Below the pieces are notes generated by a model that was given only the letters and a program-made list of their open reading frames with translations, did no database searches and was not told the origin of the DNA. Position numbers and translations under genes: made by a program. Source: Gammaproteobacteria bacterium (GTDB lineage: Bacteria > Pseudomonadota > Gammaproteobacteria > GCA-001735895). From it: 64,000 bases of DNA. The DNA lies in assembly GCA_024638385.1 (NCBI GenBank), contig JAHEKJ010000002.1:1-64000 (forward strand), written 5' to 3'. Every line of letters begins with the position of its first letter. Position 1 is the first letter of the stretch. Shown here piece after piece: positions 6,581 to 22,326 of the stretch.

Positions 6581-9307
6581 GTGTTGGCGCGACTATACAG
6601 CTTCAAGTTCATCATCAGCGCCGCGCTGCTGTGGCTCGGGGCGCTGGCCTACGGGCTCGCGATCTACAGCACACAGGTCTACCGCGGCCAGGCGATCGAT
6701 CATCAGCTGCAGTCGCTCGAATCCCTGCTCGAAATCGAAACCCGGGCCGCGATCGAAGATCTCAACGCCGAACTCGATCGTTTCGCCTTCTGGCTGCACA
6801 GCGCCCCCGAGTTTCGGCAGGCGCTGGCGGCGGGCGAACGGCAGCAGCTCGAAAGCTGGCTGAGCCGCAGCTTCGCGCTTTACCCCAACGCGGTCGAGAA
6901 GCTGCGCCTCAAATCGATCGCCGTGCGTAACCTCACCGGTGACATGGTCGCGCACACGTCGGACGACGGCATTCGCGATTACCGGGGCTGCGCACTGTCG
7001 CCGAGGGGCGGTAGCGACGCGTTGCGGCTGATCGATCCGAAGCATTCGCTGTGCAGCCGCAGCGGCGGCCTCTTCAGCGAGGTCGTGGCGCCGACCGGCA
7101 GCCCGGAAGCGGATCACTATCTGCAAATCCTGGCCTACGCGGTCGACGGCCTGAGCCTGATCGAGCGTAACATCGGCATTCCGCTGCAAATCACCAACCG
7201 CCAGGGCGAGCGGCTCTACCAGTCGGAACGCTGGACCGGCGGGCAGGACCGAACGCATCTCTATCCGACCTATACGCTGTACGGCGACGATTCCTTTGTC
7301 GGCGCCCGCATCACCGCCGCCTTCGATCAGCGGCCGATTATCGAGCGTCTCGAAGATACCGAAAGCAACTTCTTCATCATCACAACAGTCGCGACGTTCA
7401 GCGCGCTGCTGCTGGTCATTCTGCTGCTGAACCGCGCCTTGCAACCGATGAACAAACTGCGTAACTCGGTCGGCGCGCTGCTGACCGGCAAGTACGCGTC
7501 GATCAGCGAGGACAGGTTGCCGAGCGAATTACGTGACCTGGTCGTCGCCTACAACGAGATGGTCGAGGGCCTCGAGACCGAGACCATCTCGCGCCGCCAG
7601 ATCGAGGAAAAGCTGCGCTCGGAAAAAGACTTCATCTCGACGACGCTGGATTCGATCAGTAACCCGGTCATCGTCATCGATTCGAAGGATCGCATCAAGC
7701 TGATCAATCCCAGCGCCGAGAAGCTGTTCGGCGACCGCGAGTCCGATCTGATCAACACGTCGATTCACGACGTGCTGATTCTCTACGCCAATCGCCAGAC
7801 CACGCGCATCGTCGACGTACGCCAGCTGCTGACCGGCAAGATCTCGATCAGCTCGATGTATTTCTTCGACCCCGACCGCCATGTCGTCGAGCTCGAGTTT
7901 TCAGCCTCGCCGATGATCGACATGGAGGCCGAGGATGTCGGTTTCGTCATCATCTTGAAGGACGTTTCCGAGGATCGCAAGTTGCGGCGCAAACTCTCCT
8001 ACGAGGGCAGCCACGACCAGTTGACCGGTTTTCTCAATCGCGGTGCCTTCGAGCAGAAGTTCGAGAACCTCGTTACCGAAAACAACAACGCCGAACCCCA
8101 GCACGTGCTCGCCTACCTCGACCTCGATCAATTCCGCGTCATCAACGAGACTTGCGGCAATGCCGCCGGTGACCAGTTGTTGAAGCAGACGGCGGGGGTT
8201 ATTCGCCGCCACATGCGCAAGTCGGATTTCATCGCGCGCCTGTCCGGCGACGAATTCGGCATTATCATGCCGTTCTTCGAAATGGAACGCGCGCTGCAGA
8301 CGATCCAGAAAATCATCATCGACGTTCAGCACACCGGGTTCGACTGGAACGATCAGTTTTACAGCGTGACCGCGAGTATCGGCGTAATGGCTTTCGGCCG
8401 GATGTCGGACGACTACTCGGACGAATACTCGAAGGTAACCACCGCCTGCTTCCTGGCCAAGCAGAACGGCGGTAACCAGTATCATTTCATTGACGAAAAC
8501 GACGAGAAGATCAAGGCCCAGCAGGTTTCGATGGAGTGGGTGTCCGGCATCATGGAAGGCTTCGCCGAAGAACGTTTCCGACTTTACGTCCAGCCAATCG
8601 TGTCGATCGACGAGAACGAGCAACGTGATCACTACGAGGTCCTGATTCGTTACCGCAATCCCGACGGTCGAATCTATCCGCCGAACGATTTCCTGCCGCC
8701 GGCCGAGCGCTACAACCTGATCGAGCGCATCGACAGCTGGGTCGTCAGCAATGTCATCGCATGGCTCCAGCAACACCAGGATCGGCTGGACCCGGCGATG
8801 TTTTCGATCAATCTGTCGGGGCGCAGCCTCGGCTCGCAGACCTTTCACAAATTTCTGCACGACAGCCTGGCCGACAGCGAGCTGGATCTGAGCTGGCTAT
8901 GTTTCGAGATCACCGAAACCGCGGCGGTCGACAACGTCGAGCGATCGGTCGAGTTCATCAATTCGATCAAGGCGCTGGGAGCGAAGTTCTCGCTCGACGA
9001 TTTCGGCACCGGCCTGTCGTCGTTCAGTTATCTCAAGCAGTTCCCGGTCGACTTCCTCAAGATCGACGGCGAATTCGTGCGCGATATCACCGATGACGAC
9101 AAGAGTTATGTGTTCGTTCGCTCGATGACCGAGGTCGGGCATTGCCTGGACATGAAGGTCATCGCCGAATTCGTCGAATCCGATACGATGTTCGACAAGT
9201 TGCGCGAGGCAAATGTCGATTACATCCAGGGTTACATCGTCGGCAAGCCGGTCGAAATCGCGACCCTGCTTGCGGCCGACGAGGCCGGCGACGGAGTCGT
9301 GAACTAG
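6581..9307 (+). CDS. Membrane HAMP-PAS-GGDEF-EAL cyclic-di-GMP signalling protein
   Basis: Bifunctional-type cyclic-di-GMP enzyme of 908 residues with a GTG start. It has a TM helix at about 9-29, a periplasmic sensor region to about 260, a second TM at about 262-287, HAMP (about 288-340), PAS (about 345-470), GGDEF from about 477 and EAL from about 660. The GGDEF signature reads SGDEF (about 554-558), with Ser replacing the first Gly, so cyclase activity is uncertain. The phosphodiesterase keeps the key acidic residues: EVLIR, EITET, DDFGTG and KIDGEF. Phosphodiesterase activity is therefore likely. It is monocistronic, with a convergent SDR gene downstream. Confidence 0.93.
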   Translation: MLARLYSFKFIISAALLWLGALAYGLAIYSTQVYRGQAIDHQLQSLESLLEIETRAAIEDLNAELDRFAFWLHSAPEFRQALAAGERQQLESWLSRSFALYPNAVEKLRLKSIAVRNLTGDMVAHTSDDGIRDYRGCALSPRGGSDALRLIDPKHSLCSRSGGLFSEVVAPTGSPEADHYLQILAYAVDGLSLIERNIGIPLQITNRQGERLYQSERWTGGQDRTHLYPTYTLYGDDSFVGARITAAFDQRPIIERLEDTESNFFIITTVATFSALLLVILLLNRALQPMNKLRNSVGALLTGKYASISEDRLPSELRDLVVAYNEMVEGLETETISRRQIEEKLRSEKDFISTTLDSISNPVIVIDSKDRIKLINPSAEKLFGDRESDLINTSIHDVLILYANRQTTRIVDVRQLLTGKISISSMYFFDPDRHVVELEFSASPMIDMEAEDVGFVIILKDVSEDRKLRRKLSYEGSHDQLTGFLNRGAFEQKFENLVTENNNAEPQHVLAYLDLDQFRVINETCGNAAGDQLLKQTAGVIRRHMRKSDFIARLSGDEFGIIMPFFEMERALQTIQKIIIDVQHTGFDWNDQFYSVTASIGVMAFGRMSDDYSDEYSKVTTACFLAKQNGGNQYHFIDENDEKIKAQQVSMEWVSGIMEGFAEERFRLYVQPIVSIDENEQRDHYEVLIRYRNPDGRIYPPNDFLPPAERYNLIERIDSWVVSNVIAWLQQHQDRLDPAMFSINLSGRSLGSQTFHKFLHDSLADSELDLSWLCFEITETAAVDNVERSVEFINSIKALGAKFSLDDFGTGLSSFSYLKQFPVDFLKIDGEFVRDITDDDKSYVFVRSMTEVGHCLDMKVIAEFVESDTMFDKLREANVDYIQGYIVGKPVEIATLLAADEAGDGVVN

Positions 9308-9321
9308 GCGCGGCCGGTCGG

Positions 9322-10041
9322 CTAGCGCCTGCGCCCGCCCTTGAAGTCGATCGACTTGATCCGGGGCGACAACGTGATTTCGTCGATCACGATAGACTCG
9401 CTGCTGGCGAGAATCTGAGCGACCAGCGCGGCGACGTCGCCGACCTCTATCGCGTTTTCCACCGCGGCGCCGGGGGCAAAGTCGAGCGCGTCGAAAAACG
9501 CGCTGCGCACCATGCCGGGATTGATCAGGCTGACGCGAATACCGGCGGCGGCGCAATCCTCGCGCAGTGCCCGGCAAAATCCGCGCAGGCCATGCTTGGC
9601 CGCGCTGTAGAGCGCGCCCTTGCGACCGGCTTCGAGCGCCGCCTCCGAGCCGATGAAGATCAGCTGGCCGCGTCCGGCGCGGCGCATCGACGGCACCAGC
9701 GCGCGGCTGAGGACCAGCGCGCTGGTCAGATTGAGCCGCAACGACGCGTCGATTTGCGCGACCGAGAATTGTTCGATCGAGCCGAACAGGCCGGCGCCGG
9801 CGGCGTGCACCAGGCAGTCGACGGGACGCTCGCCGAGGCTCGCCCGCAGCGAAGTCTCGATCGCGTCGAGGTCGGTCAGGTCGAGCGCCAGCGGCGTGAA
9901 GTCGGCGCCCGCGAGTCGCGCCACGTCGCCGCGCCGGCTCAGGCCGACAACCTGGTATCCGTCGTCCAGCAGGCGCTCGGCGCAGGCCAGGCCGATGCCG
10001 GAACTCGCGCCGGTGACGACGGCGGTGCGGCGCTCAGTCAT
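9322..10041 (-). CDS. Short-chain dehydrogenase/reductase (SDR)
   Basis: NAD(P)-dependent oxidoreductase of 239 residues with the classical SDR layout: cofactor motif TGASSGIG at about 11-18, an HAAGAG stretch in place of NNAG, a catalytic Ser in FIGSEA, and the catalytic pair in YSAAK at about 150-154. The substrate cannot be told from sequence. It is the last gene of a four-gene minus-strand operon; its start codon overlaps the end of the radical SAM gene by 8 bases, so the two are translationally coupled. Confidence 0.9.
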   Translation of the reverse strand: MTERRTAVVTGASSGIGLACAERLLDDGYQVVGLSRRGDVARLAGADFTPLALDLTDLDAIETSLRASLGERPVDCLVHAAGAGLFGSIEQFSVAQIDASLRLNLTSALVLSRALVPSMRRAGRGQLIFIGSEAALEAGRKGALYSAAKHGLRGFCRALREDCAAAGIRVSLINPGMVRSAFFDALDFAPGAAVENAIEVGDVAALVAQILASSESIVIDEITLSPRIKSIDFKGGRRR

Positions 10042-11131
10042 GCCAGCTGCACGGCTGGTAGCGGTCGGCCGGCACGCGCTCGAGCAGTCGGGATTCGCAA
10101 TACTCGATCATCTCGCGTTCGCGATCGTGCGGGTAGCTGATGATACCATCCCGCGCCGCAAGGTCCTGGGCGAACAGCGGTTCGCCGGGGTATAGCCGCG
10201 TGACGCGGCGATAGTGCGCGCGCGTCAGGCGAAACGGGCCGAGGCTGACCGAGTGCAGGCGCGCGGCGTCGACGCGGGCGAAAATTTCGTCGAGCAGGGC
10301 GACGAAGGTCGAGCGGTAGTCGCGATGATACACCACCGGATCGAGGCGCAGGCCGACCGGCCAGCCGGCGTCCTGCAGCCGCGCCATCGCGTCGACGCGC
10401 CGCTCGATCGGCGGCACGCCGTGCTCGAGCCGCGCGTGACTGACGGCATCGCTGAAACTGAAAGCGACGACGACGCGCGCGACCGGTTCGCGCGCGAGCA
10501 GCCCGCGCACCTGGGTACTCTTGGTGCGCAATTCCATCCACGCATTGGCGACGCGGTCGATCACGGGCACGAAGAAATCGGTAAAGCGGGTCATCGGTTC
10601 GAAGGCGAGGCTGTCGCAGTCGTAGCCCGAGTAGAACCAGACCGTCGCCGGCGCGTGCTCGCCGGCGACGGCCTCGATGTCGGCGGCGAAATCCTCGTAG
10701 TTGACGAACACGACCTGGTGCGCCGAACGGTACATGCCCTGCAGAAAGCAATAGCGACAGTCGTAGACGCAATTGAGCATGTGCGAGAAATAGTAGTGGT
10801 GGTCGCCGTCGAGACCGTATCCCGGCGGCGCCTCGAGCACGCGTTTGTGCGGCTTGGCCGCGATGATCAGCGCCGGGTTGCGTTTCTGCAGGCGAAAATT
10901 CTGCGCCCGCGGGTTGAAGACCTCACCGTAGCGCTCGATCTCGATTCGTGGCGTCGTCGTGCCGAGGCGTTGCAACATCGCCCGCGCGCGCGGATGCGCG
11001 CTGATACCGGACTCGATGTAGACGCAGCTGGCCAGCTTACAGCCCCGCGCTATCGTCGTGGCACAACCGCGCCAGGGATTCCAGCTTGGCGCGTCGCGTC
11101 GGCTCCGCGTGCATGCGCGCGAGCAGCGCAT
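10034..11131 (-). CDS. Spore-photoproduct-lyase-like radical SAM protein
   Basis: Radical SAM protein of the SplB family. The 4Fe-4S motif is CVYDCRYC (CX3CX2C), followed by FLQGMY, as in spore photoproduct lyases; YIESG and HKRVLE segments ahead of it also match the family. The ATG at 11131 is the only ATG upstream of the conserved YIE motif and makes the gene overlap the upstream nucleosidase by 95 bases. The first ~30 residues look non-native, so a CTG near 11030-11035 may be the real start. A non-spore-former has no spore photoproduct, so the substrate is unknown. The neighbours are a nucleosidase-like protein upstream and an SDR downstream. Confidence 0.8.
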   Translation of the reverse strand: MRCSRACTRSRRDAPSWNPWRGCATTIARGCKLASCVYIESGISAHPRARAMLQRLGTTTPRIEIERYGEVFNPRAQNFRLQKRNPALIIAAKPHKRVLEAPPGYGLDGDHHYYFSHMLNCVYDCRYCFLQGMYRSAHQVVFVNYEDFAADIEAVAGEHAPATVWFYSGYDCDSLAFEPMTRFTDFFVPVIDRVANAWMELRTKSTQVRGLLAREPVARVVVAFSFSDAVSHARLEHGVPPIERRVDAMARLQDAGWPVGLRLDPVVYHRDYRSTFVALLDEIFARVDAARLHSVSLGPFRLTRAHYRRVTRLYPGEPLFAQDLAARDGIISYPHDREREMIEYCESRLLERVPADRYQPCSWHD

Positions 11132-11855
11132 GGCGGTCGTATTCGCGGTTCAGCAGGTAGCGCGCGAGTGCGCGCAGGCGGTTTTGCTCGGTTTCGCTAA
11201 ACGGCGCCGCGGCGAGTAGCGCGTGCCAGTCGGCGGGGTCGATTTCGCGCCCGCCGACATCGTCGGCCAGCGCCAGCAGGCGCATCGCCTCGGTGTCGAT
11301 CGCGTCGAGCCGGCGCTCGATCAACGCGCTGACGGCGCCGCGATCGCGCCCGGTATGCGCGCACGGATTATCGCTGACGACCTTGAGGCAGCCGATCAGT
11401 TCGGCGGAGGAAAAGCGCAGCGCGCTGGCGGCGAATCCGCTGGCCTCCATGTCGAGCAGGAACCCGGGCGGATAGTCGTTGCCGGGTCTGGCGAGGCTCA
11501 GGCACGCGGCGGTCGGCAGTGCCGGTTTCGCGGTCGGCGTCGGGTAGTAGCGCCGGCCGCTGTCGGCATCGACGATCTGCACGACCTGCAGCAGCGTGCC
11601 GAGCTTGAAATCGGCGGCCCCGGCGATTCCGACGTTGAGCCAGGCGAGCGCCCGCTCGGTGTCGAAGCGCGCGGCGCACCAGGCCGTTGCCGCGGCGCCG
11701 GCGAGACGACCGACACCGCTGACGATGCAGGCCATGCGCGGGTTTTCATAGAGATCGAAGGCATGATCGCGCCGCGATTTCTTCAACCGGTAGCGATCGA
11801 TGATCGGCCGGGCTTCGCAGGCGAGCGCGCAAACCCAGATCAGCCGGCCGCTCAC
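11037..11855 (-). CDS. Nucleoside phosphorylase/nucleosidase-like protein
   Basis: Protein of 272 residues resembling the purine-nucleoside phosphorylase/MTA-SAH nucleosidase superfamily. It starts LIWVCALACEARPII, the usual first strand with an acidic residue, has VSGVGRLAGAAATAW and WLNVGIAGA, and a DMEASGFA motif near 140-147 that matches the ribose-binding ME.E region. The family C-terminus is not obvious; the last ~80 residues are Leu/Arg rich. It could hydrolyse 5'-deoxyadenosine or methylthioadenosine, which would suit the overlapping radical SAM gene, but this is inference. It also overlaps the upstream glycosyltransferase by 4 bases. Confidence 0.75.
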   Translation of the reverse strand: MSGRLIWVCALACEARPIIDRYRLKKSRRDHAFDLYENPRMACIVSGVGRLAGAAATAWCAARFDTERALAWLNVGIAGAADFKLGTLLQVVQIVDADSGRRYYPTPTAKPALPTAACLSLARPGNDYPPGFLLDMEASGFAASALRFSSAELIGCLKVVSDNPCAHTGRDRGAVSALIERRLDAIDTEAMRLLALADDVGGREIDPADWHALLAAAPFSETEQNRLRALARYLLNREYDRHALLARMHAEPTRRAKLESLARLCHDDSAGL

Positions 11856-12688
11856 GACGCGGCCGCAGCGGCGAGGCGCGCGCGCATGGGCTCGAACTCG
11901 GCGAGGATGTCATCGTTGCCGTGTTTGCGCGCCCCGGCGAGCAGTATGCCGAGCTTGCGTTCGAGCGTCTCGCGCGCGGCGCGCGCGTCGTCCGCGCCGA
12001 GCGCCGATTCGTCGAGCACCCGGGCGAGCGCGCGCACTCGAAAACGGTCCATTGCCGGGTAGCGCGCCGACAGTTGATCGGCGTGACCGCCGTACTTCGT
12101 GATCAGCGGTTCGTCGATGTAGTGCACCGGGTAGCGGCTGCACAGGCGCAGCCACAGATCGTAGTCCTCGCAGGCCGGCAGCGATTCGTCGAATCCGCCA
12201 AGCTCGACGAGCCGCTCGCGCCGGATCACCGCAGCCGACGGCGAAATCGCGCACAACGGCAGGCAGTGGCGGAAGATCCAGCCGCCGTGCTTGCGGTGTT
12301 TGCGATGCGGATTGACCCGGCGGCCGCGGCGCACCCAGAATTCATCGGAGTGATAGAGCGCGAAGCCGGGGTGTCGCGCGGCGGCGTCGTGCACGCGGGC
12401 GATCTTGTGCGGCAACCAGCAGTCGTCGGAATCGAGCAGCGCGATCCAGTCGCCGCGCGCGGCCTCGATGCCGAGGTTGCGCGCGGCGCTGACGCCGCGA
12501 TTGGCCTGGCGAATCAAGTCGACCCCGGGGAAATCGCTCGCGACCATCGCCGCGCTGGCGTCGCTCGAGCCGTCGTCGACGACGATGACCTGGGCCACCG
12601 GTAACGTCTGCGCGAGCACCGAGCGCAGCGCGCGCGCGAGCGGCTCGCGCCGGTTGTAGCTCGGGATGACGGCGGTTATTCGCATCAT
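11852..12688 (-). CDS. Family 2 glycosyltransferase
   Basis: GT-A fold glycosyltransferase of 278 residues, cytoplasmic, with no membrane helix. The nucleotide-sugar motifs are clear: ITAVIPSYNRR at the N-terminus, VIVVDDGSSD near 34-43, NRGVSAARNLGIEAARGDWI near 63-82, and the metal-binding LLDSDDCW near 84-91. A later CEDYDLWLRL matches the acceptor-site acidic motif. The acceptor is unknown. It is the first gene of the minus-strand operon with the nucleosidase, radical SAM and SDR genes. Confidence 0.9.
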   Translation of the reverse strand: MMRITAVIPSYNRREPLARALRSVLAQTLPVAQVIVVDDGSSDASAAMVASDFPGVDLIRQANRGVSAARNLGIEAARGDWIALLDSDDCWLPHKIARVHDAAARHPGFALYHSDEFWVRRGRRVNPHRKHRKHGGWIFRHCLPLCAISPSAAVIRRERLVELGGFDESLPACEDYDLWLRLCSRYPVHYIDEPLITKYGGHADQLSARYPAMDRFRVRALARVLDESALGADDARAARETLERKLGILLAGARKHGNDDILAEFEPMRARLAAAAAS

Positions 12689-12704
12689 TGCCGGGGCCGA
12701 CGCG

Positions 12705-13037
12705 TCAGGTTTTTTGCGGAACGATCGACGATCCCGGGAAACTGGTCACGATCGCGCCGTCGCTGTCGAGGATGCGATTCTTGCCACAACGCTCGACCTC
12801 GTCGATACGAATCACGGAATGCAGCGGTATATAGGTGTGCTTGACGTTGCCGAACTCGCTCTTGAGTTTCTCTTCGGCCGGATCGATCAGCAATTTCGAA
12901 TGTTCGCCGAATATGATTTCACCGATCTCGATGAAGCCGGCCATCCGCGCCTGGCCGACCTCGTGCGCGTAGAGTTCGTAGATCCGGTTGCTGTTGTGGA
13001 ACTGGATGCGAAACATCGGTTTGTCGGCTTTCGGCAT
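12705..13037 (-). CDS. DUF1820 family protein
   Basis: Protein of 110 residues matching the DUF1820 family of gammaproteobacteria: FRIQFHNSNRIYELYA, then GFIEIGEI.FGE, DPAEEKLK.EF and YIPLHSVIRIDEV. It is soluble with no known role. It lies 9 bases downstream of grxC and 16 bases upstream of the glycosyltransferase start, so it may be the link in a longer transcript. Confidence 0.86.
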   Translation of the reverse strand: MPKADKPMFRIQFHNSNRIYELYAHEVGQARMAGFIEIGEIIFGEHSKLLIDPAEEKLKSEFGNVKHTYIPLHSVIRIDEVERCGKNRILDSDGAIVTSFPGSSIVPQKT

Positions 13038-13046
13038 GCGCGGAAC

Positions 13047-13307
13047 CTATTCCGGTTGCATCAGTTCGTCGAGCTCGCCGTCCATGTGCAGCTCGGTGAG
13101 TTCGGAGAATCCGCCGACGAGGCGCTCGTCGATCAGAATTTGCGGCACCGTGCGCGCGCCGCGCGTGACCTCGGCGAATTCGCGCATGGCCGCGGCATCG
13201 CCGTCGATGCGAATCTCGTCGTAGGGGATCGCCCACTTGTCGAGCATGGTTTTGGCCCGGGCGCAGATCGCGCACCGCGCGGTACTGTAAATTTTTACTC
13301 TCGGCAT
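13047..13307 (-). CDS. grxC: Glutaredoxin (GrxC type)
   Basis: Small thiol-disulfide oxidoreductase using glutathione. The ATG at 13307 gives 86 residues, the usual GrxC length; a longer frame to 13373 adds a non-conserved leader. The fold opens with VKIYSTARCAICARAK, with the active site CAIC in place of the usual CPYC. TVPQILID supplies the cis-Pro and GGFSEL the glutathione-binding glycines. Ala for Pro and Ile for Tyr in the active site may alter its redox potential. It is followed by the DUF1820 gene. Confidence 0.88.
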   Translation of the reverse strand: MPRVKIYSTARCAICARAKTMLDKWAIPYDEIRIDGDAAAMREFAEVTRGARTVPQILIDERLVGGFSELTELHMDGELDELMQPE

Positions 13308-13388
13308 CGATTGCCCGCCCGCGGTAATAACGGCTAATGGTAACTCAGGTGGGGATCGGAGTCCTGCTTTCAAGCCGGCCGCGGCGGC

Positions 13389-15752
13389 TCATCCCGAATG
13401 CCGAATCGCGAGCACTACCTGGTTGCGCAAGGTCTTTAGCAGGCCGAGCTGCTCGTCGCTGATGCGCACGGGCTGCTGCTGCGCGCTGTCGATATAGATC
13501 AGCGCGAGCGGTCTCTTGCGAACGACGACCGGGAAGATCGTGAAGCAGCGGGCGCCGACCTGCTCGTGATACCAGGCGGGCATCTTGTCGCGGATCTTGG
13601 CGTCAGCCGAGTTTTCGATACGAATGTCGACGTTGTTGTCGAGGGCGGCGCGGAAGACGTCGGCCTGCTGCTTGCGCGGAATCGCGAAGTGCTCGATCAA
13701 TTGCTGCACGTCGTCGCCGTAGCCGAAGCGCGCGCGAATGTCGCCGCTCTTGTTGTCCTTCAGGCACAGCACGACGCGCACGCCGTCGAAGGCGCGGTAA
13801 ATGGTTTCGAGCGCCATCTGCATGACCTGGTTGATGCTGTAGTCGCCGGCCAGCGTGGCGGTGATGTCCTGAATGCCCTCGGTCAGGGTTTTTTCTACCG
13901 TCTGATCGGTCACGGCCGACTGATCGACGAGAATTTCGACGCTGTCGTCGATGCCGATTTCCAGCGTCGGCGGAACTTCCGGCGGTTCCGGTTCGAGGCT
14001 GCCGCCGCTCGAGATTTGCTGATAGTAGATGCTCTTGTCGAGATCGAACTGGATCAGCCGCGCGAAGCGGGTCAACTCCCGGTGGCAGTTTTCGAGCAGG
14101 CTCGAAACCTTTTCGCCATCGAGGTCGAGGATCTTGCCGAACTGGCCGGTCAGGCGATTGATTGCCGGCGCCTGCTGCTGCAGCGGCAGGGTCAGGCAGA
14201 TCCCGAGCGCACTCGAAAACTGCGCGACGAGCTTGAGTTTGTCGTCGGCCGACCGGGGTTGCGGCAAATGATCGAAGTCGAGCGGCAACATGCAGTCGGT
14301 AATCGATTTGGGGAAACCCCATTCGCGCGCCACCGAAAAACCGAGACGCGCATAGCTGGTGCCTAGAATTTCAGTCGCCGCCGCGGCTTCACTGCAGTTT
14401 TTGCCGGCCACGAGCTTATCGATCGCGCGCGCCTCTTCGTGCAGATAGAAACGCACCAGCATCTTGCCGAGTTGTTGCAGCAACGCGCACAGAAAGGCTT
14501 CCTCGTGGTTGGCGATCGAAAGCCCGCGCGCCAGCGAGTTGGCCAGCAGGCCGCTGAACAGTGCCTGCACCGACTGCTCCTTGAGCTTGTGCGCCTGCAG
14601 CTTGTCCTGCAGGTGCTCGAACAGCATCAGGCCGACCGCGATGCTGCGCACGGTATCGATGCCGAGCATCACCAGCGCGCGCGATATCGTGCTGACCTTG
14701 CCGCCGCCGCGATTGTAATAAGCCGAATTCACCAGCCGCAGGACCTTGTTGGTCAGCGAGTAATCCTTGAGGATCGCATTCGAGACTTCGGCCAGGCTCT
14801 CGGTTTCGCTCGACGAGGCCTGGTTGAGCACGCTGATCGTGTGCGAAAAAGCGGGGAAATCCTTCTTGTGGCGCATGCGCCGCAGCAAAAATCTCGCGGT
14901 CGCGTCGCCATGACCCCGGCGCGGCGTGCTCTGGTCGAGCGCGAAGTAATCGTTGATCGCCCGCAGCAACTCGCCGGCGTCGGCGTATCGCTCCACCGGA
15001 TTCTTGGCAAGCGATTTCATGATCAGCGCATTCAGGCGCTCGTCGACCTCGGCGGCGAGTTGCGACGGCGGCACGATTTGCCGGGTCGCGATCGCGTTGA
15101 GCACCTGGTAGACCTCCTTGCCCTTGAAGGGCGCTTCGCCGGTCAACAGCTCGTAGCAGATCAGCCCCAGCGAGAACACGTCGGAGACCTTCTGGTGGCG
15201 GTGCGTTTCGAGGTACTCGGGCGCCATGTACTGCGGCGTGCCGCAGAGCGAATTGCCGGAACTGCGGGCAGCGTCGGTCAGCCAGGCAAGTCCGAAATCC
15301 GCAACCTTGGCCTGGCCCTGTTCGCTGATCAGGATGTTCGCCGGTTTCAGGTCGCAATGTACGATATCCTGCGCATGCGCGGCGGCCACGCCGTCGATGA
15401 TATCGCGCATGATATTGAGCTTTTCGTCGTAGCCGAGCCCGGCCGCGATCTTTTTCTGCAGTGGCTGGCCGTCGATGTACTCGAACACGAGGTACGGATC
15501 CTGGCCGTGCATGCCGATATCGAAGATCGAGACGACGTTGGCATGCTGGAGGCGGCTCACGGTGCGCGCTTCGGCGATGAGCTGCTCGATGTCGCCGCGC
15601 GGTCCGAGGCCGCCGCCGAGGCGGACCGACTTGATCGCGACCTGGCGCTTGAGCCGGGGGTCGTGCGCGAGGTAGACCATCCCCTGGCTGCCCTCTCCGA
15701 GCACGCGGCGAATGTGAAAGCGATCGATGGACTGTGGAAAACTGGCGGCCAT
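13389..15752 (-). CDS. Serine/threonine protein kinase fused to HDOD and GAF-like domains
   Basis: Protein of 787 residues. An N-terminal Hanks-type kinase (about 12-270) has the glycine loop GEGSQGMV, Lys41 in VAIKSV, HCDLKPAN with Asp134 as the catalytic base, DFG at 152-154 and an APEYLE stretch. An HDOD domain follows (about 295-500; SETESLAEVSNAIL and LVNSAYYNR are typical). A C-terminal GAF-like domain starts near 620. There are no membrane spans. HDOD domains are linked to signalling and motility control, but no substrate can be named. The HRD motif reads HCD, a substitution also seen in active kinases. It stands alone between the DUF2288-oxyR pair and grxC. Confidence 0.92.
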   Translation of the reverse strand: MAASFPQSIDRFHIRRVLGEGSQGMVYLAHDPRLKRQVAIKSVRLGGGLGPRGDIEQLIAEARTVSRLQHANVVSIFDIGMHGQDPYLVFEYIDGQPLQKKIAAGLGYDEKLNIMRDIIDGVAAAHAQDIVHCDLKPANILISEQGQAKVADFGLAWLTDAARSSGNSLCGTPQYMAPEYLETHRHQKVSDVFSLGLICYELLTGEAPFKGKEVYQVLNAIATRQIVPPSQLAAEVDERLNALIMKSLAKNPVERYADAGELLRAINDYFALDQSTPRRGHGDATARFLLRRMRHKKDFPAFSHTISVLNQASSSETESLAEVSNAILKDYSLTNKVLRLVNSAYYNRGGGKVSTISRALVMLGIDTVRSIAVGLMLFEHLQDKLQAHKLKEQSVQALFSGLLANSLARGLSIANHEEAFLCALLQQLGKMLVRFYLHEEARAIDKLVAGKNCSEAAAATEILGTSYARLGFSVAREWGFPKSITDCMLPLDFDHLPQPRSADDKLKLVAQFSSALGICLTLPLQQQAPAINRLTGQFGKILDLDGEKVSSLLENCHRELTRFARLIQFDLDKSIYYQQISSGGSLEPEPPEVPPTLEIGIDDSVEILVDQSAVTDQTVEKTLTEGIQDITATLAGDYSINQVMQMALETIYRAFDGVRVVLCLKDNKSGDIRARFGYGDDVQQLIEHFAIPRKQQADVFRAALDNNVDIRIENSADAKIRDKMPAWYHEQVGARCFTIFPVVVRKRPLALIYIDSAQQQPVRISDEQLGLLKTLRNQVVLAIRHSG

Positions 15753-15825
15753 GTCAAACTACGAGACCCTGCTGGTCTTCAGAGTATAGCCAGCGAGTCA
15801 GAGTCTGCCGCCGGTACGCTCCGGA

Positions 15826-16149
15826 TCAGGGGTCAGTCTCGGTGGATTGCACCAGTACCCAGGGTTTGACGACGACCGCCCACAGCAGCGCGTCGTCTTC
15901 GATCCAGCCGCGCGCCTCGTCGTCGCTGACCGGGTAGAGCGCAGTCGCCTCGGTCCAGGCTTCGACGCGGCCGACGTCGTCCTGCTCGAGCGCGCAGGCG
16001 ACCTCGACGAGGTCGAGTTCGGCGGCGACGCGCAATACCTTGCCGGCGGCAAAGAATCGCTGCAGGTCGCGCCAGGGGACTTGCGCGGTTTCGAGGTTGA
16101 GCTTGGCGCGGGTCAGGTCGAGATCCTGCCGCCTCGGGTCGTCGCTCAC
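15826..16149 (-). CDS. DUF2288 domain-containing protein
   Basis: Protein of 107 residues from a GTG at 16149 that overlaps the oxyR stop (GTGA). It carries the DUF2288 pattern: LNLETAQVPWRDLQRFFAAG, LDLVEVACAL, an AR.WIED stretch, and the terminal LWAVVVKPWVLVQ. It is small and soluble, with unknown function. The overlap implies translational coupling with oxyR. Confidence 0.82.
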   Translation of the reverse strand: MSDDPRRQDLDLTRAKLNLETAQVPWRDLQRFFAAGKVLRVAAELDLVEVACALEQDDVGRVEAWTEATALYPVSDDEARGWIEDDALLWAVVVKPWVLVQSTETDP

Positions 16150-17075
16150 GCGACCGACTTGATGATGTCGACGCCGTCGAGCGGGCTGTCCTGGATCGTA
16201 TCGCGAATCGTGAAGATCGCTTCCTTGCGCGGGAAGTGCTTGCGCCAGGCGATCGCGACCGTGCGGTGCGGCGACGGTTCGGTGAACGGTTTGATCGTGA
16301 TCAGCGATTCGTTTTTCTGGCTGTGCAGGATGCTGGTGCGCGGCAGCACGGTGATGCCGGTTCCGGCCGCGACCATGTGGCGGATGGTTTCGAGCGAGCC
16401 GCCTTCGAGAGTCCGGGTCAGTTCGCTGTTGCCCGACATGCAATCGGGACAGGCCTCGATGACCTGGTCGCGGAAGCAGTGGCCCGAGCCGAGCAACATC
16501 AGATCCTGGGTTGCCAGATCCTGCGGCGGAATCTGCTTGCGGTCCTTCCACTCGTGGTTGCGCGGCAGCGCGACGATGAACGGCTCGTCGTAGAGCGGCG
16601 CGGTTTCGATGCCGGGTTCGTCGAACGGGTAGGAGATGATGATCGCGTCGAGCGCGCCCTGCTTCAACGACTGGAACAGGTTGGCGGTGAAATTTTCCTC
16701 GATGATCAGCTTCAGGTTCGGTGCGTTCTTCTTCAGTTTCGGGATCAGGCTCGGCAACAGGTAGGGACCGATCGTGTAGATCACGCCGAGCTTGAACTGA
16801 CCCGAAAGCGGGTCCTTGCCCTGCTGCGCGATCTCGGTCAGGATCTGCGCTTCCTGCAACACGATATAGGCCTGGTTGATGATCTGCTGGCCGATTTCGG
16901 TGATGCGGATTTCGTTTTTCGAGCTGCGCTCGAACAGGCGCACGTCGAGTTCTTCCTCGAGTTTCTTTATCGCGATACTTAGGGTAGGCTGGCTCACGAA
17001 ACAGGCCTGCGCGGCCTTGCCGAAATGGTTTTTCTGTGCCACCGCGACGATGTAGCGCAACTCGGTCAGAGTCAT
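16146..17075 (-). CDS. oxyR: Hydrogen-peroxide sensing regulator OxyR
   Basis: LysR-type activator of the peroxide response, 309 residues. The N-terminal HTH is ELRYIVAVAQ...HFGKAAQACFVSQP. The redox cysteines are C200 (GSGHCFRDQ) and C209 (EACPDC), matching the E. coli pair C199 and C208; an extra cysteine follows at C212. The C-terminal sensor domain is complete. It is divergent from the TerB-like gene across 71 bases that contain two nested palindromes, and is followed by the overlapping DUF2288 gene. Autoregulation at that region is likely but inferred. Confidence 0.94.
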   Translation of the reverse strand: MTLTELRYIVAVAQKNHFGKAAQACFVSQPTLSIAIKKLEEELDVRLFERSSKNEIRITEIGQQIINQAYIVLQEAQILTEIAQQGKDPLSGQFKLGVIYTIGPYLLPSLIPKLKKNAPNLKLIIEENFTANLFQSLKQGALDAIIISYPFDEPGIETAPLYDEPFIVALPRNHEWKDRKQIPPQDLATQDLMLLGSGHCFRDQVIEACPDCMSGNSELTRTLEGGSLETIRHMVAAGTGITVLPRTSILHSQKNESLITIKPFTEPSPHRTVAIAWRKHFPRKEAIFTIRDTIQDSPLDGVDIIKSVA

Positions 17076-17087
17076 CGGGATCGGTAC

Positions 17088-17141
17088 CTATTGATTTAAT
17101 CAATTAATTTTGCACAAACCTGTATTTTTTGCAATCAATAG
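17088..17141. promoter_or_regulatory. Nested palindromes between oxyR and the TerB-like gene
   Basis: Two overlapping dyads occupy the divergent intergenic region. ATTGATT-T-AATCAAT is a perfect 15-base palindrome at 17090-17104. A wider dyad pairs CTATTGATT (17088-17096) with AATCAATAG (17133-17141). LysR-type regulators bind T-N11-A dyads of this kind near their own genes, and the CTAT/ATAG ends recall OxyR half-sites. Site identity is inference. Confidence 0.5.
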
Positions 17142-17146
17142 TTGCT

Positions 17147-17596
17147 ATGAAAAAATTACTGCAAAAATTGCTCGCGGTCGACGACGACAGCGATAGCGGG
17201 GTCGACGTCGAGCACGCGCTCAAGGTCGCGACGGCGGTCCTGCTGGTCGAAGTCACGCGCGCCGATTTCAGCGTCGAGCGCGCCGAGCGCGAGCGTGTGC
17301 GCCGCCTGCTCGGGCAACAATTCGAGCTGTCGGCGGCCGAGCTCGACGCCGTGCTCGAGGAGGCCGAGGCCGATGCTGACCGGCTGGTCTCGATCCAGCA
17401 CTTCACCCGGCTGCTGAACGAGCATTACGACCACGCGATGAAGGTGCGTATCGTCGAAATGATGTGGCAGGTCGTCTACGCGGACGGCGACAAAGACCAC
17501 TACGAGGAACACCTGTTGCGCCAGGTCGCCGAACTCCTCTACCTGTCTCACGCCGAATTCATCCAGGCCCGCCACAAGGCCGAACCCTCGACCTAG
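17147..17596 (+). CDS. TerB-family (tellurite-resistance-like) protein
   Basis: Soluble helical protein of 149 residues from the ATG at 17147. It has the TerB-like fold pattern: ALKVATAVLLVEVTRADFSV, ERERVRRLLGQQFELS, and MKVRIVEMMWQVVYADGDKD with conserved acidic residues that could bind metal. The family is named after tellurite resistance but most members have no proven function. It is divergent from oxyR, so it may belong to the oxidative-stress response. An upstream TTG at 17129 would add six residues; the ATG is preferred. Confidence 0.84.
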   Translation: MKKLLQKLLAVDDDSDSGVDVEHALKVATAVLLVEVTRADFSVERAERERVRRLLGQQFELSAAELDAVLEEAEADADRLVSIQHFTRLLNEHYDHAMKVRIVEMMWQVVYADGDKDHYEEHLLRQVAELLYLSHAEFIQARHKAEPST

Positions 17597-17622
17597 GCAG
17601 TAGCTCGTATCGGGATTTGCAC

Positions 17623-17782
17623 GTCATTGCGAGGAGCGCGCGGTAGCGGATACTGCCAGGTCATTGCGAGGAGGCGCGCGGAAGCGGGTACTGGCAGGTC
17701 ATTGCGGGGAGGCGCAGCCGACGAAGCAACCTCCGGACAGCTGCCCGATCCAAAGAGATTGCTTCGCTGCGCTCGCAATGAC
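17623..17782. repeat. Dispersed palindromic repeat, copy A (compound)
   Basis: Three successive left ends of the GTCATTGCGAGGAG(G)CGC type begin at 17623, 17660 and 17698. They are followed by one full right end, GATTGCTTCGCTGCGCTCGC plus AATGAC, ending at 17782. The ends are inverted copies of each other, so the unit can fold into a hairpin. It sits between the convergent TerB-like and yggT genes. Confidence 0.85.
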
Positions 17783-17837
17783 GCGAAATACGAAAAACGT
17801 CGCCGCGACCCGTACCTGCTGCCGCGAAACGCTCGTG

Positions 17838-18443
17838 TCAGAACGTGCCGAGCAGGACGATGGGGGGGATCACGAGCATCTTGCCGACGAGCAGGATCAG
17901 CGTCGCGAACAGCGGTGACAGGTCGAGCCCGCCGACCGGCGGGATTACGCGCCGCAGCGGGCGCAGCACCGGCTCGGCGAGCCTGTGCACGAGGCCGATG
18001 ACCGGATTGTTGCTGCCGGGCGCGATCCAGCTCAGGATGACCACGATGATGACCGCAACCAGGAACACGGTAAACGTCAGCGCGATCAGGTCGGCGATAC
18101 AGAATACCAGCAAGCCGCCATAGCTCACGCCGATGATCGGCGCGACCACGCCGCCGATGTGGACGGCCTTGACCTCGAGCGCGCGCAGGATCATGAACTT
18201 GGCGAAGATCAGCAGCAGGCACAGCACGATCGCCGCGGTGTCCTGGCCGCGAATACTCGGGATGAAACGTCGCAGCACGCGCAGCGGCGGCGTCGTCACA
18301 CGCACGATGAACTGCGAGATCGGATTGTAGAAATCGGCGCGCAGCATCTGCAGCAGGAAACGCAACAACACCAGCAGAATGTAGAGGTCGAAGAGCGTGT
18401 TGATGATCAGCATCAACGGTGAAAGTAAATAGCCGGAACCCAT
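17838..18443 (-). CDS. yggT: YggT family membrane protein
   Basis: Inner-membrane protein of 201 residues made of two YggT repeats, each with a hydrophobic hairpin. FLLQMLRADFYNPISQFI and LSWIAPGSNNPVIGLVHRLA are the two matching signature segments, with RPLRRVIPPVGG after the second. The family has been linked to osmotic-shock tolerance in E. coli; the mechanism is unknown. It lies 9 bases downstream of proC in a yggS-proC-yggT operon, the usual gammaproteobacterial order. Confidence 0.92.
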   Translation of the reverse strand: MGSGYLLSPLMLIINTLFDLYILLVLLRFLLQMLRADFYNPISQFIVRVTTPPLRVLRRFIPSIRGQDTAAIVLCLLLIFAKFMILRALEVKAVHIGGVVAPIIGVSYGGLLVFCIADLIALTFTVFLVAVIIVVILSWIAPGSNNPVIGLVHRLAEPVLRPLRRVIPPVGGLDLSPLFATLILLVGKMLVIPPIVLLGTF

Positions 18444-18452
18444 CTTGCCCGC

Positions 18453-19271
18453 CTAGGACTCGGTCAGTTCACGCGCGAGCTCGATGGAACGCCGGCGCGC
18501 GGCCTCGGTCGCCGCGTCCACCAGCGCGTCGAGACGCTGTTGTTGAAAGCTCAGAATCGCCTGCTCGGTCGTGCCCCGCTTCGAAGTGACCTGCGCGCGA
18601 AGCTGTTCGACGTCGCCATCCTGCGCCATGGTCGCGGCGCCGAGCGCGGTCTGGCGCGCGAGCCGCGCGGCGGTCGTCCGCGGCAGGCCGAGCTTGACCC
18701 CGGCGGCCTCGAGCAGTTCGATGAAGTAAAAGAAGTAGGCCGGGCCGCTGCCCGAGATCGCGGTCACCGCGTCGAGGTCGGCTTCGTCGTCGACCCAGAT
18801 CGCGATGCCGACCGCCTCGAGTATCTGCTGCGCCACCGATTGCTGGACCTCGCTGACATAGGCGTTGGCGTATAGGCCGCTGGCGCCGAGGCCGATCAGC
18901 GCCGGCGTGTTGGGCATGCAGCGGACGATCGCGCGGCCGCCGCCGAGCCAGGCGTCGAGCGCATCGATCGGCACGCCGGCGGCGATGCTGATAAAAAGTT
19001 GCTGCGGGTTGGGCGGCAACTCCTCGAGCGATGCGCAGACATCGCGCATGACCTGCGGCTTGACCGCGAGGACGATGATTTGCGCGTGCTGCGCGCTGGT
19101 GAAGTTATCGGTCGAGGTCTGAATGCCGAAGCGCTCGGCGAGTTCCTGCAATCGATCGGAATCGATATCGCAGGCGGTAATCTGACCATCGTCGTCGAGC
19201 TTGTCGAGCATCCCGCCGATCAGGCTCGTCGCCATGTTGCCCGCGCCGATGAAGCAGATCTTTTGATTCAA
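18453..19271 (-). CDS. proC: Pyrroline-5-carboxylate reductase
   Basis: Last step of proline synthesis, reducing pyrroline-5-carboxylate with NAD(P)H. It has 272 residues, normal length. The Rossmann motif is FIGAGNMATSLIGGM; VLAVKPQ, RCMPNTPALIG and the catalytic-region SGSGPAYFF are present. The final helical part, with LARQTALGAA and SKRGTTEQAI, matches the dimerisation domain. Its start overlaps the yggS stop by 4 bases. Confidence 0.95.
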   Translation of the reverse strand: MNQKICFIGAGNMATSLIGGMLDKLDDDGQITACDIDSDRLQELAERFGIQTSTDNFTSAQHAQIIVLAVKPQVMRDVCASLEELPPNPQQLFISIAAGVPIDALDAWLGGGRAIVRCMPNTPALIGLGASGLYANAYVSEVQQSVAQQILEAVGIAIWVDDEADLDAVTAISGSGPAYFFYFIELLEAAGVKLGLPRTTAARLARQTALGAATMAQDGDVEQLRAQVTSKRGTTEQAILSFQQQRLDALVDAATEAARRRSIELARELTES

Positions 19272-19981
19272 TTGCGTTCCCCGAAGATTGCCGTGCCGAC
19301 CCGGACCAGGGTCGAGCCTTCGGCGATCGCGGCTTCGAGGTCCTGGGTCATGCCCATCGATAAGGTATCACAGCCGAGGCCGCGTTGCTGCAGTGTTTCG
19401 AGCGCCTCGCGCAGCTGCGCAAAGGCCGCGCGCTGCGCATCGGGGTCGGCACGCGGCGCCGGGATCGCCATCAGGCCGCGCAGGCGCAGCCGCGGCAGCT
19501 CGGCGACCCCGGCGGCAAGATCGGCGACCGCTTCGAGTTCGATTCCGGCCTTACTCTCCTCGCGGTCGAGGTTGACCTGAATGCAGACCTCGAGCGGTTC
19601 GAGTTCGTCCGGGCGCTGCGCGGACAGGCGCTGCGCGATCTTGATGCGATCGATGCAATGCGCCCAGGCGAAGGCCTCGGCAATGTCGCGCGTCTTGTTC
19701 GACTGGATCGCGCCGATGAAGTGCCAGCGAATCTCGAGATCGGCGAGCACGCGCATTTTCTGTTGCGCTTCCTGCAGGTAGTTCTCGCCGAAATCCCGTT
19801 GCCCCAGCCGGTAAGCCCGGCGAATGTCGTCGGCGGATTTTTTCTTCGCCACCGCGAGCAGCAAAACCGAATCCGGATCGCGACCGTGCGCGCGCGCGGC
19901 CCGCGCGATCCGCGCGCGCACGGCGTCCAGATTTTTTCCGATGTTCTCCACAGAGTTTGCTATATTTGTTTTGTCATTCAA
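19268..19981 (-). CDS. yggS: YggS-family pyridoxal-phosphate homeostasis protein
   Basis: PLP-binding protein that controls the free cofactor pool and has no proven catalytic activity. It has 237 residues in a TIM-barrel-like fold. The PLP lysine lies in LLAVAKKKSADDI, and GENYLQEA, WHFIGAIQSNK and a late DLEAAIAEGSTLVRVGTAIF are family motifs. It is the first gene of the yggS-proC-yggT operon and is divergent from pilT across 101 bases. Confidence 0.94.
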   Translation of the reverse strand: MNDKTNIANSVENIGKNLDAVRARIARAARAHGRDPDSVLLLAVAKKKSADDIRRAYRLGQRDFGENYLQEAQQKMRVLADLEIRWHFIGAIQSNKTRDIAEAFAWAHCIDRIKIAQRLSAQRPDELEPLEVCIQVNLDREESKAGIELEAVADLAAGVAELPRLRLRGLMAIPAPRADPDAQRAAFAQLREALETLQQRGLGCDTLSMGMTQDLEAAIAEGSTLVRVGTAIFGERN

Positions 19982-20027
19982 GCCGCGCGAGCGGCCGATT
20001 TATCAATCGTTCGTCTGCAGGCGATAC

Positions 20028-20033
20028 TATAAA
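20028..20033 (+). promoter_or_regulatory. Candidate pilT -10 box
   Basis: A TATAAA hexamer lies about 50 bases before the pilT ATG in the yggS-pilT divergent gap. No good -35 is present at 16-18 bases. A clear ribosome-binding AAGGA follows at 20072-20076. Confidence 0.3.
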
Positions 20034-20082
20034 GCCCGTCACGATTTCTACCAAACCCGTCTATCGAGAATAAGGATACGGT

Positions 20083-21117
20083 ATGGATATTGCTCAACTC
20101 CTGGCTTTCGGCGTGAAACAGGGCGCCTCGGATTTACACCTGTCCGCGGGGTTGCCGCCGATGATTCGCGTCGATGGCGACATTCGCCGGATCAACGTTC
20201 CGGAGATGGACCACAAGCAGGTGCACGACATGATCTATGACATCATGAGCGACAAGCAGCGCAAGGATTACGAGGAATACCTGGAGACCGACTTCTCGTT
20301 CGAGATCCCGGGGCTCGCGCGTTTTCGCGTCAACGCCTTCAATCACAATCGCGGCGCCGGTGGCGTCTTCCGGACGATCCCGTCGAAGATCCTGAGCCTC
20401 GAGGACCTGAACGCGCCGAAGATCTTCCAGGAAATCTCCGAGTATCCGCGCGGCATCGTGCTCGTCACCGGGCCGACCGGCTCGGGCAAGTCGACCACGC
20501 TCGCCGGCATGGTCGACTACAAGAACGATACCGAGTACGGCCACATCCTGACGGTCGAGGACCCGATCGAATTCGTCCACGAAAGCAAGAAGTGCCTCGT
20601 CAACCAGCGCGAGGTGCACCGCGATACGCTGGGCTTCAACGAGGCGCTGCGCTCGGCGCTGCGCGAAGACCCGGACACGATCCTGGTCGGCGAGATGCGC
20701 GACCTGGAGACCATTCGCCTCGCGCTGTCGGCGGCCGAAACAGGCCACCTCGTGTTCGGCACGCTGCATACGAGTTCGGCGGCCAAGACCATCGACCGGA
20801 TCGTCGACGTGTTTCCGGCGGCGGAAAAGGCCATGGTACGTTCGATGTTGTCGGAATCGTTGAAGGCGGTCATCTCGCAAACGCTGATGAAGAAGATCGG
20901 CGGCGGCCGCATCGCCGCGCACGAAATCATGATCGGCACGCCGGCGATCCGCAACCTGATCCGCGAAGACAAGGTTGCGCAGATGTACTCGGCCATCCAG
21001 ACCGGACAGAATGTCGGCATGCAGACGCTGGATCAGAATCTCAAGGCGTTGCTGGCCCAGGGCGTCGTCGCCAAGGACGAGGCGCAACGCAAGGCGGCTA
21101 ACCCGGAAGCGCTATAA
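20083..21117 (+). CDS. pilT: Type IV pilus retraction ATPase PilT
   Basis: Hexameric secretion-type ATPase at the inner-membrane base of the type IV pilus that drives pilus depolymerisation and twitching. It has 344 residues, the canonical length. Key motifs are ASDLHLSAG at the N-terminus, Walker A GPTGSGKST near 133-141, the Asp box TVEDPIEFVH, Walker B VGEMRDLET, the His box GHLVFGTLHTSSA, and the C-terminal TPAIRNLIRED (AIRNLIRE), which marks true PilT and is needed for retraction. It is the first of three tandem homologues. Confidence 0.97.
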   Translation: MDIAQLLAFGVKQGASDLHLSAGLPPMIRVDGDIRRINVPEMDHKQVHDMIYDIMSDKQRKDYEEYLETDFSFEIPGLARFRVNAFNHNRGAGGVFRTIPSKILSLEDLNAPKIFQEISEYPRGIVLVTGPTGSGKSTTLAGMVDYKNDTEYGHILTVEDPIEFVHESKKCLVNQREVHRDTLGFNEALRSALREDPDTILVGEMRDLETIRLALSAAETGHLVFGTLHTSSAAKTIDRIVDVFPAAEKAMVRSMLSESLKAVISQTLMKKIGGGRIAAHEIMIGTPAIRNLIREDKVAQMYSAIQTGQNVGMQTLDQNLKALLAQGVVAKDEAQRKAANPEAL

Positions 21118-21147
21118 TCGGCACCGGCGAGACCGGGAGGAAGACTC

Positions 21148-22317
21148 ATGGACCGTAACAAGGCAATCAGTTTCATGCACGACCTGCTGCGCATGATGGT
21201 CAGCAAGGACGGTTCGGACCTGTTCATCACGTCGGGCTCGCCGCCGGCGATGAAAATCGACGGCAAGGTCACGACGGTATCGAAGCAAAACCTGTCGCCG
21301 AGCCACACGCAGATGCTGGCGCGCTCGATCATGAACGACAAGCAGGTTTCGGAATTCGAGGAACACCAGGAATGTAATTTCTCGATCGCGCTGCCCGGCG
21401 TCGCGCGCTTTCGCGTCAACGCCTTCGTCCAACGCGGCAGCTGCGGCCTGGTGCTGCGTATCATCAACTCCGAGATTCCCGGCTTCGAAGAGCTCAACCT
21501 GCCGCCGATCCTGCAGGATATCGCGATGACCAAGCGCGGCCTGGTGATCTTCGTCGGCGGCACCGGCTCGGGTAAATCGACCTCGCTGGCGTCGATGGTC
21601 GACTACCGCAACCGGAATTCGCACGGTCATATCATCACGATCGAAGACCCGGTTGAATTCGTCCACGATCACGGCAATTGCCTGGTCACGCAGCGCGAGG
21701 TCGGCGTCGATACCGAATCCTACGAGATCGCGCTGAAAAACACGCTGCGACAGGCGCCCGACGTGATCCTGATCGGCGAGATCCGCGACCGCGAAACCAT
21801 GGAGCACGCGATCGCGTTCGCCGAAACCGGCCACCTGTGCCTGTCGACGCTGCACGCCAACAGCACCAACCAGGCACTCGACCGCATCATCAACTTCTTC
21901 CCCGACGAACGCCGCCAGCAACTGCTGATGGACTTGTCGCTGAACCTCAAAGGGCTGGTGTCGCAGCGGCTGATTCCGAAGATCGACGGCGCCGGTCGAA
22001 TCCCGGCGATCGAGGTCATGCTCAACACGCCGCTGATGGCCGACCTGATCTTCAAGGGCGACGTGCACGAGATGAAGACGCTGATCTCGAAATCCAACGA
22101 AGCCGGCATGCAGACTTTCGACCAGGCGCTGTTCAGGCTCTTCGAGGAGCGCAAGATCACTTACGAGGATGCGTTGCGCAACGCTGATTCGGTCAACGAT
22201 ATTCGTCTGCGCATCAAGCTCGAGAGTGAAACCGCGCGCAAGACCGGTATCACCGACGACCACCGCGATTTCGAGCTCGAAGAGTCCGAGGACGAGACCG
22301 CGAGCGGGATGATCTGA
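21148..22317 (+). CDS. pilU: PilT-dependent retraction ATPase PilU
   Basis: PilT paralogue of 389 residues that works with PilT to raise retraction force. It has Walker A GGTGSGKST, Asp box TIEDPVEFVHD, Walker B IGEIRDRET and His box GHLCLSTLHANST. In place of AIRNLIRE it has the PilU-type TPLMADLIFKGDVHE, and it ends with the PilU-like YEDALRNADSVNDIRLRIKL. A strong GGGAGGAAG ribosome-binding site precedes the ATG, 30 bases after pilT. Its acidic tail (ELEESEDE) is probably disordered. Confidence 0.94.
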   Translation: MDRNKAISFMHDLLRMMVSKDGSDLFITSGSPPAMKIDGKVTTVSKQNLSPSHTQMLARSIMNDKQVSEFEEHQECNFSIALPGVARFRVNAFVQRGSCGLVLRIINSEIPGFEELNLPPILQDIAMTKRGLVIFVGGTGSGKSTSLASMVDYRNRNSHGHIITIEDPVEFVHDHGNCLVTQREVGVDTESYEIALKNTLRQAPDVILIGEIRDRETMEHAIAFAETGHLCLSTLHANSTNQALDRIINFFPDERRQQLLMDLSLNLKGLVSQRLIPKIDGAGRIPAIEVMLNTPLMADLIFKGDVHEMKTLISKSNEAGMQTFDQALFRLFEERKITYEDALRNADSVNDIRLRIKLESETARKTGITDDHRDFELEESEDETASGMI

Positions 22318-22326
22318 CGAGGTTTC

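Follow-up and report, generated by a model that had tools for sequence, protein, structure and literature searches.

Proteins with an HDOD domain recur in motility screens, and the natural fusion of such a domain to a kinase gives it a measurable output. Within a stretch of 64,000 nucleotides (the window) from a gammaproteobacterial contig (JAHEKJ010000002.1, assembly GCA_024638385.1) one gene appears to join a Hanks-type kinase to HDOD and GAF domains, which raises the question of whether the fusion is genuine and, if so, in which direction a signal would pass along the chain and what it would control.

Domain architecture and catalytic residues

The open reading frame at 13389-15752 is real; its strand, left unstated in the sequence-only reading, is the minus strand. 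The fusion of kinase, HDOD and GAF in one chain, as proposed there, is borne out: all three domains score above their Pfam cut-offs in the 787-aa protein (Pkinase 176.1 bits, cut-off 31.7; HDOD, PF08668, 132.6 bits, cut-off 22.9; GAF_2, PF13185, 31.4 bits, cut-off 28.6; GAF, PF01590, 24.0 bits, cut-off 22.4), and the domain order is conserved over the full length among homologs of 36-70% identity. That the chain is soluble is plausible as well, the single hydrophobic window (Kyte-Doolittle 1.84, residue 360) falling within the HDOD core. We thus regard the product as a real and intact signalling protein with predicted activity. Its features are:

13389..15752, minus strand: kinase-HDOD-GAF gene, 787 aa (open reading frame and Pfam)
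14982..15719, minus strand: Hanks-type kinase domain, residues 12-257, with K41, E61, H132-C133-D134, N139 and DFG at 152-154 (Pfam, alignment)
15351..15359, minus strand: HCD replacing HRD, non-RD (alignment)
14844..14891, minus strand: FLLRRMRHKKDFPAFS motif, residues 288-303, at the kinase/HDOD junction; its FLLRR portion tracks the kinase
14289..14855, minus strand: HDOD domain, residues 300-488 (Pfam and PDB profile comparison)
14463..14477, minus strand: QQLGK, residues 426-430, at the position of the HD dyad of HD-family enzymes
14010..14285, minus strand: helical extension C-terminal to HDOD, residues 490-581 (AlphaFold2 model)
13902..14006, minus strand: low-confidence linker, probably disordered, residues 583-617 (AlphaFold2 model)
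13404..13838, minus strand: GAF domain, residues 639-783 (Pfam, PDB profile, Foldseek)

The kinase domain carries the Hanks-type hallmarks (G-loop, K41, alphaC E61, D134, N139, DFG and APE), including the two catalytic residues named beforehand, K41 and D134. As K41, E61, D134, N139 and DFG are all intact, catalysis is plausible. Of the 49 kinase domains aligned, 46 retain the K, E, D, N and the Asp of DFG, and L074, L079 and L146_5929 are degenerate. An arginine before the catalytic Asp (RD) is typical of Hanks-type Ser/Thr kinases, though not required. Among the 49 members, which take in close relatives so that the counts are not independent, this residue is C in 21, R in 17, G in 7, L in 3 and H in 1, i.e. 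the HRD arginine is missing in 32. Furthermore, the activation loop is devoid of Ser/Thr in 7 of the 49, and inspection of all 49 loops by eye revealed no conserved single Ser/Thr site. The missing arginine and the Ser/Thr-free loops together make it less likely that the family is switched in general by classical phosphorylation of the loop. The non-RD state is not unique to this protein in its own genome, where five of the eight kinases that were readable among 12 Pkinase hits carry R and three, including this one, do not; this control is fairer than another in which 16 of 16 kinases had R or K, since the loci of the latter were chosen by peptide patterns.

In sequence and fold comparison with the PDB, the kinase domain best resembles PknB/PknA. 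Its fold and catalytic residues are shared with PknB/Stk1-type Hanks kinases (PDB 5u94, 1mru, 4eqm; ~30-34% identity), from which the protein differs by HCD in place of HRD, by the HDOD-GAF tail and by the lack of PASTA repeats. Indeed, the NCBIfam equivalog for PASTA kinases (NF033483) scores 248.9 bits, short of its cut-off of 450, and aligns with the kinase domain only.

HD-family enzymes have an HD catalytic dyad. This dyad is absent from the HDOD domain, which has QQLGK at 426-430 and matches PDB 3m1t and 3hc1. The GAF domain matches PDB 3oov (profile, E 1.2e-7) and, by Foldseek, other GAFs. The NKFDE motif is the mark of cNMP-binding GAF domains; it has no match in the protein, and even a loose pattern matches only 1 of 56 rows. 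As there is also no His or Cys among the GAF columns that are >80% conserved, a heme- or cNMP-binding GAF was rejected.

The AlphaFold2 model of the full-length protein, built with 21 sequences, has a mean pLDDT of 72.9 and a pTM of 0.54 and yields no domain contacts; the HDOD-GAF part modelled alone reaches a mean pLDDT of 69.8. Both the kinase and the GAF domain are well modelled. For residues 295-382, the N-terminal half of HDOD, pLDDT stays below 50 in the full-length model and over most of the stretch when HDOD-GAF is modelled alone. Beyond HDOD the prediction has helices to ~581, a low-confidence stretch to 617 and then GAF. Structure prediction, which was to decide on the HDOD and GAF boundaries, therefore supports the latter, but the HDOD boundary is based on sequence rather than structure.

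Distribution, junction motif and tandem partners

The combination had been called uncommon, and matching this expectation it is found in about 6% of the class sample, i.e. in at least 21 of 369 Gammaproteobacteria genomes, distributed over 16 families; this is a lower bound, as weaker matches were left unfetched. An additional copy (L087) runs off the end of its contig. Outside the gene's own family the HDOD-GAF identity in this sample is 28-37%. In its own genus 15 of 31 genomes carry the gene (14 full-length, one split across two contigs), and so do 7 of 10 in the remaining family, with one more truncated at a contig end. The close relatives found in the genome contig scan include the Olavius algarvensis Gamma 3 endosymbiont (L029, 68%). 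Of the matches listed for 398 genomes sampled from the phylum, those from other classes align over HDOD only.

At the kinase/HDOD junction, FLLRR precedes HDOD in 39 of 42 kinase-bearing rows compared to 1 of 13 kinase-less rows. The kinase-bearing exceptions are L111, L092 and the pseudokinase L146_5929 (the count omits the contig-cut L087, which also lacks the motif), and the sole kinase-less row with FLLRR, L148, is nested among kinase-bearing rows. DFPA.S, C-terminal to FLLRR, is shared by both groups.

Several variants of the architecture occur. Kinase-HDOD proteins without GAF are encoded at L088, L090 and L092; HDOD-GAF proteins without kinase at L083, L086, L089, L091, L093 and others. 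The GAF part of some of the latter aligns yet stays below the Pfam threshold. Two kinase-HDOD-GAF genes stand in tandem at L037 (69 bp apart) and L040 (32 bp apart), a kinase-HDOD-GAF gene is followed by an HDOD-GAF gene 2 bp on at L103, two HDOD-GAF genes are spaced by 7 bp at L144, and at L146 (5929-10270, plus strand) a pseudokinase-HDOD gene precedes an intact kinase-HDOD-GAF gene by 13 bp. This arrangement suggests that tandem partners may form hetero-oligomers. A single clade of kinase fusions was rejected by the AU test; with long branches and a quick tree, the numbers of losses and gains are unsure. The architecture is thus lineage-restricted yet recurrent, and the features of the family are a mostly non-RD kinase, the junction motif and the tandem partners. 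We also note a 1137-aa single chain at L111 (2681-6091, plus strand) in which HDOD and GAF are combined with two kinase domains.

Flagella and the direction of signalling

A link to motility had been suggested from what HDOD proteins often do. Of the 369 genomes in the class sample 190 have FliM, with 21 of 21 among the carriers vs 169 of 348 among the others (Fisher p 5e-7). Against an HDOD-positive background the excess is weak (21/21 carriers vs 156/179, p 0.066; counting strong FliM hits only, 148/179 non-carriers, p 0.024), and FliM is found in 177 of the 200 genomes that match the HDOD-GAF query vs 13 of 169 that do not, a comparison uncorrected for phylogeny. At genome sizes of at least 2.8 Mb (sizes being listed for most, not all, genomes without a match), FliM occurs in 105 of 151 non-carriers (carrier excess, Fisher p 9e-4) and in 116 of 128 HDOD-GAF-matching vs 10 of 44 non-matching genomes; size is therefore not the explanation of the HDOD-flagella link. 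Most of the association between carriers and FliM is this general link.

Within the genus, 12 of 15 carriers have FliM vs 7 of 16 non-carriers (p 0.043), and for bins at least 90% complete the ratio is 9/9 vs 5/12 (p 0.007); the three carriers without FliM are bins that are 62, 66 and 87% complete. HDOD copy number is higher with FliM than without it (median 13 vs 6.5). When independent pairs are taken from a 26-genome locus tree, the genus excess is not significant (median p 1). Two genomes that hold remnants of the gene, G016 and G017, both lack FliM, G017 being sister to G015, which has kinase and FliM; of the sisters G002 and G030 one alone has the kinase and both have FliM. Many flagellated relatives do without the gene, i.e. 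it is dispensable. The motility link thus stands as a co-occurrence across the class, but it is mostly HDOD-general and does not reach significance under phylogenetic control within the genus.

Published work also connects HDOD proteins with motility. Swimming is altered by HDOD proteins in P. syringae (PMC11813219) and in P. protegens (PMC11004494, where Xanthomonas GsmR and Campylobacter Cj0248 are cited), and SadB binds c-di-GMP (PMC6543031); in passages of the last two papers the mechanism by which HDOD proteins pass on a signal is called not established. For Acidithiobacillus, GGDEF and EAL are described as partner domains of HDOD (PMC6416229). Among the titles and abstracts listed in searches of open-licence PMC articles, preprints excluded, none had a kinase-HDOD protein as its topic. 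Like the HDOD proteins of known structure or function (PDB 3hc1, 3m1t and 1vqr, Cj0248; SadB, GsmR), the protein described here has an HDOD without HD dyad and belongs to a motility-associated family; unlike them, it is fused to kinase and GAF and has no YbaK, EAL or receiver domain. Stand-alone HDOD-GAF proteins (Paraburkholderia, Cupriavidus and plasmid matches) align with its HDOD-linker-GAF part over ~490 aa at 25-26%; they are without kinase, and 12 of the 13 kinase-less rows compared are without FLLRR.

The best reading of these data is a sensor-linked kinase, with motility as its best-supported output. It builds on the observed domain order, catalytic residues, absent HD dyad, non-RD state, kinase-tracking motif and recurrence across families. 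Specifically, we tentatively propose, at a little short of an even chance, a cytosolic Ser/Thr kinase set in cis by the HDOD-helical-GAF module and acting in the control of motility or lifestyle. This C-terminal module, and not phosphorylation of the activation loop, would govern kinase activity. A small molecule would bind GAF, possibly with a nucleotide or a partner protein at HDOD, and the altered module would act on the kinase via the FLLRRM junction helix. The substrates that the kinase would then phosphorylate in trans most likely belong to flagellar motility or to the choice between swimming and attachment. If HDOD-GAF ligands do alter kinase activity, HDOD signalling would become assayable in vitro. 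An extension of this scheme, which we think unlikely to hold in all its parts, would make these proteins a Gammaproteobacteria-specific group of mostly non-RD kinases switched by HDOD-GAF via the FLLRRM helix, often tandem-partnered (by a pseudokinase or a kinase-less HDOD-GAF protein), that serve as heteromeric sensor-kinases and, through Ser/Thr phosphorylation, relay a second-messenger signal to the control of flagella.

The signal might also pass in the reverse direction, with HDOD-GAF as the output and the kinase as an input domain joined to it. The kinase would then phosphorylate either the HDOD-GAF part of the same chain or a tandem partner, in the manner of an adaptor switch. Kinase-less HDOD-GAF proteins are common and nested among kinase-bearing rows, partners lie 2-69 bp away (in one case a pseudokinase-HDOD beside an active-looking kinase-HDOD-GAF), and HDOD-only proteins affect motility without any kinase, all of which is consistent with such a switch. 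However, the catalytic residues are conserved in 46/49 members, and a conserved HDOD-GAF phospho-acceptor is not among the features seen. We therefore consider the reverse direction possible, if somewhat doubtful.

Genomic neighbourhood and gene loss

The immediate neighbours of the gene, both in lineage synteny, are:

15826..16151, minus strand: DUF2288 gene, immediately upstream
13047..13373, minus strand: glutaredoxin-3-like gene, immediately downstream

The sequence-only reading had argued from the proximity of oxyR, glutaredoxin and twitching genes. In 13 of 20 loci from the genome contig scan, glutaredoxin and DUF1820 come after the kinase, and oxyR usually precedes it where the contig extends far enough. 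This order is conserved inside the family only: oxyR, glutaredoxin, DUF1820 and pil genes are near homologs in 0 of 20 loci of other families, where merely generic GGDEF/EAL matches occur (2/20). The context argument thus falls, and a general operon function with oxyR, glutaredoxin and DUF1820 was rejected on the same grounds. No RNA elements were found at gathering thresholds at 8000-22000 of the window, around the gene.

We examined ten loci of family members without a full-length copy. In six, glutaredoxin comes after oxyR and nothing is left of the kinase; in two (L135, of genome G017, and L142, of G016) both ends of the gene persist as remnants that lie in different frames; and in the other two, parts of the oxyR-glutaredoxin block are missing. 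Intact synteny without the kinase and the out-of-frame remnants indicate that the gene is old in the lineage and was lost more than once.

These loci also bear on the idea of a redox kinase belonging to the oxyR/glutaredoxin locus, under the control of the HCD cysteine or of glutaredoxin. The glutaredoxin neighbour in 13/20 loci and the position of C133 at the catalytic loop would fit; however, the 20 other-family loci share no neighbour with this one, 28 of 49 members have R, G, L or H instead of the Cys, and several relatives retain the oxyR-DUF2288-glutaredoxin order without the kinase. We rejected a redox role of C133, given its variability among the 49 members, and judge the redox kinase as a whole improbable. 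Least credible of all is a regulator of twitching (type IV pilus), for which pilT/pilU lie 4-6 kb off here and in relatives, but PilM is near-universal (343/369), so that co-occurrence is uninformative, and homologs of other families have no pil genes nearby.

Elsewhere in the window, three consecutive genes for PilT-family ATPases were noted at 20083-23490 on the plus strand (pilT, pilU and a third at 22327-23490), a triple also present in the relatives L029, L031, L034, L046, L134 and L137. On the minus strand, 9322-12688 encodes a GT2, a futalosine-hydrolase-like protein, a spore-photoproduct-lyase-like radical SAM protein and an SDR, a conserved block that is retained in the family even where the kinase was lost.
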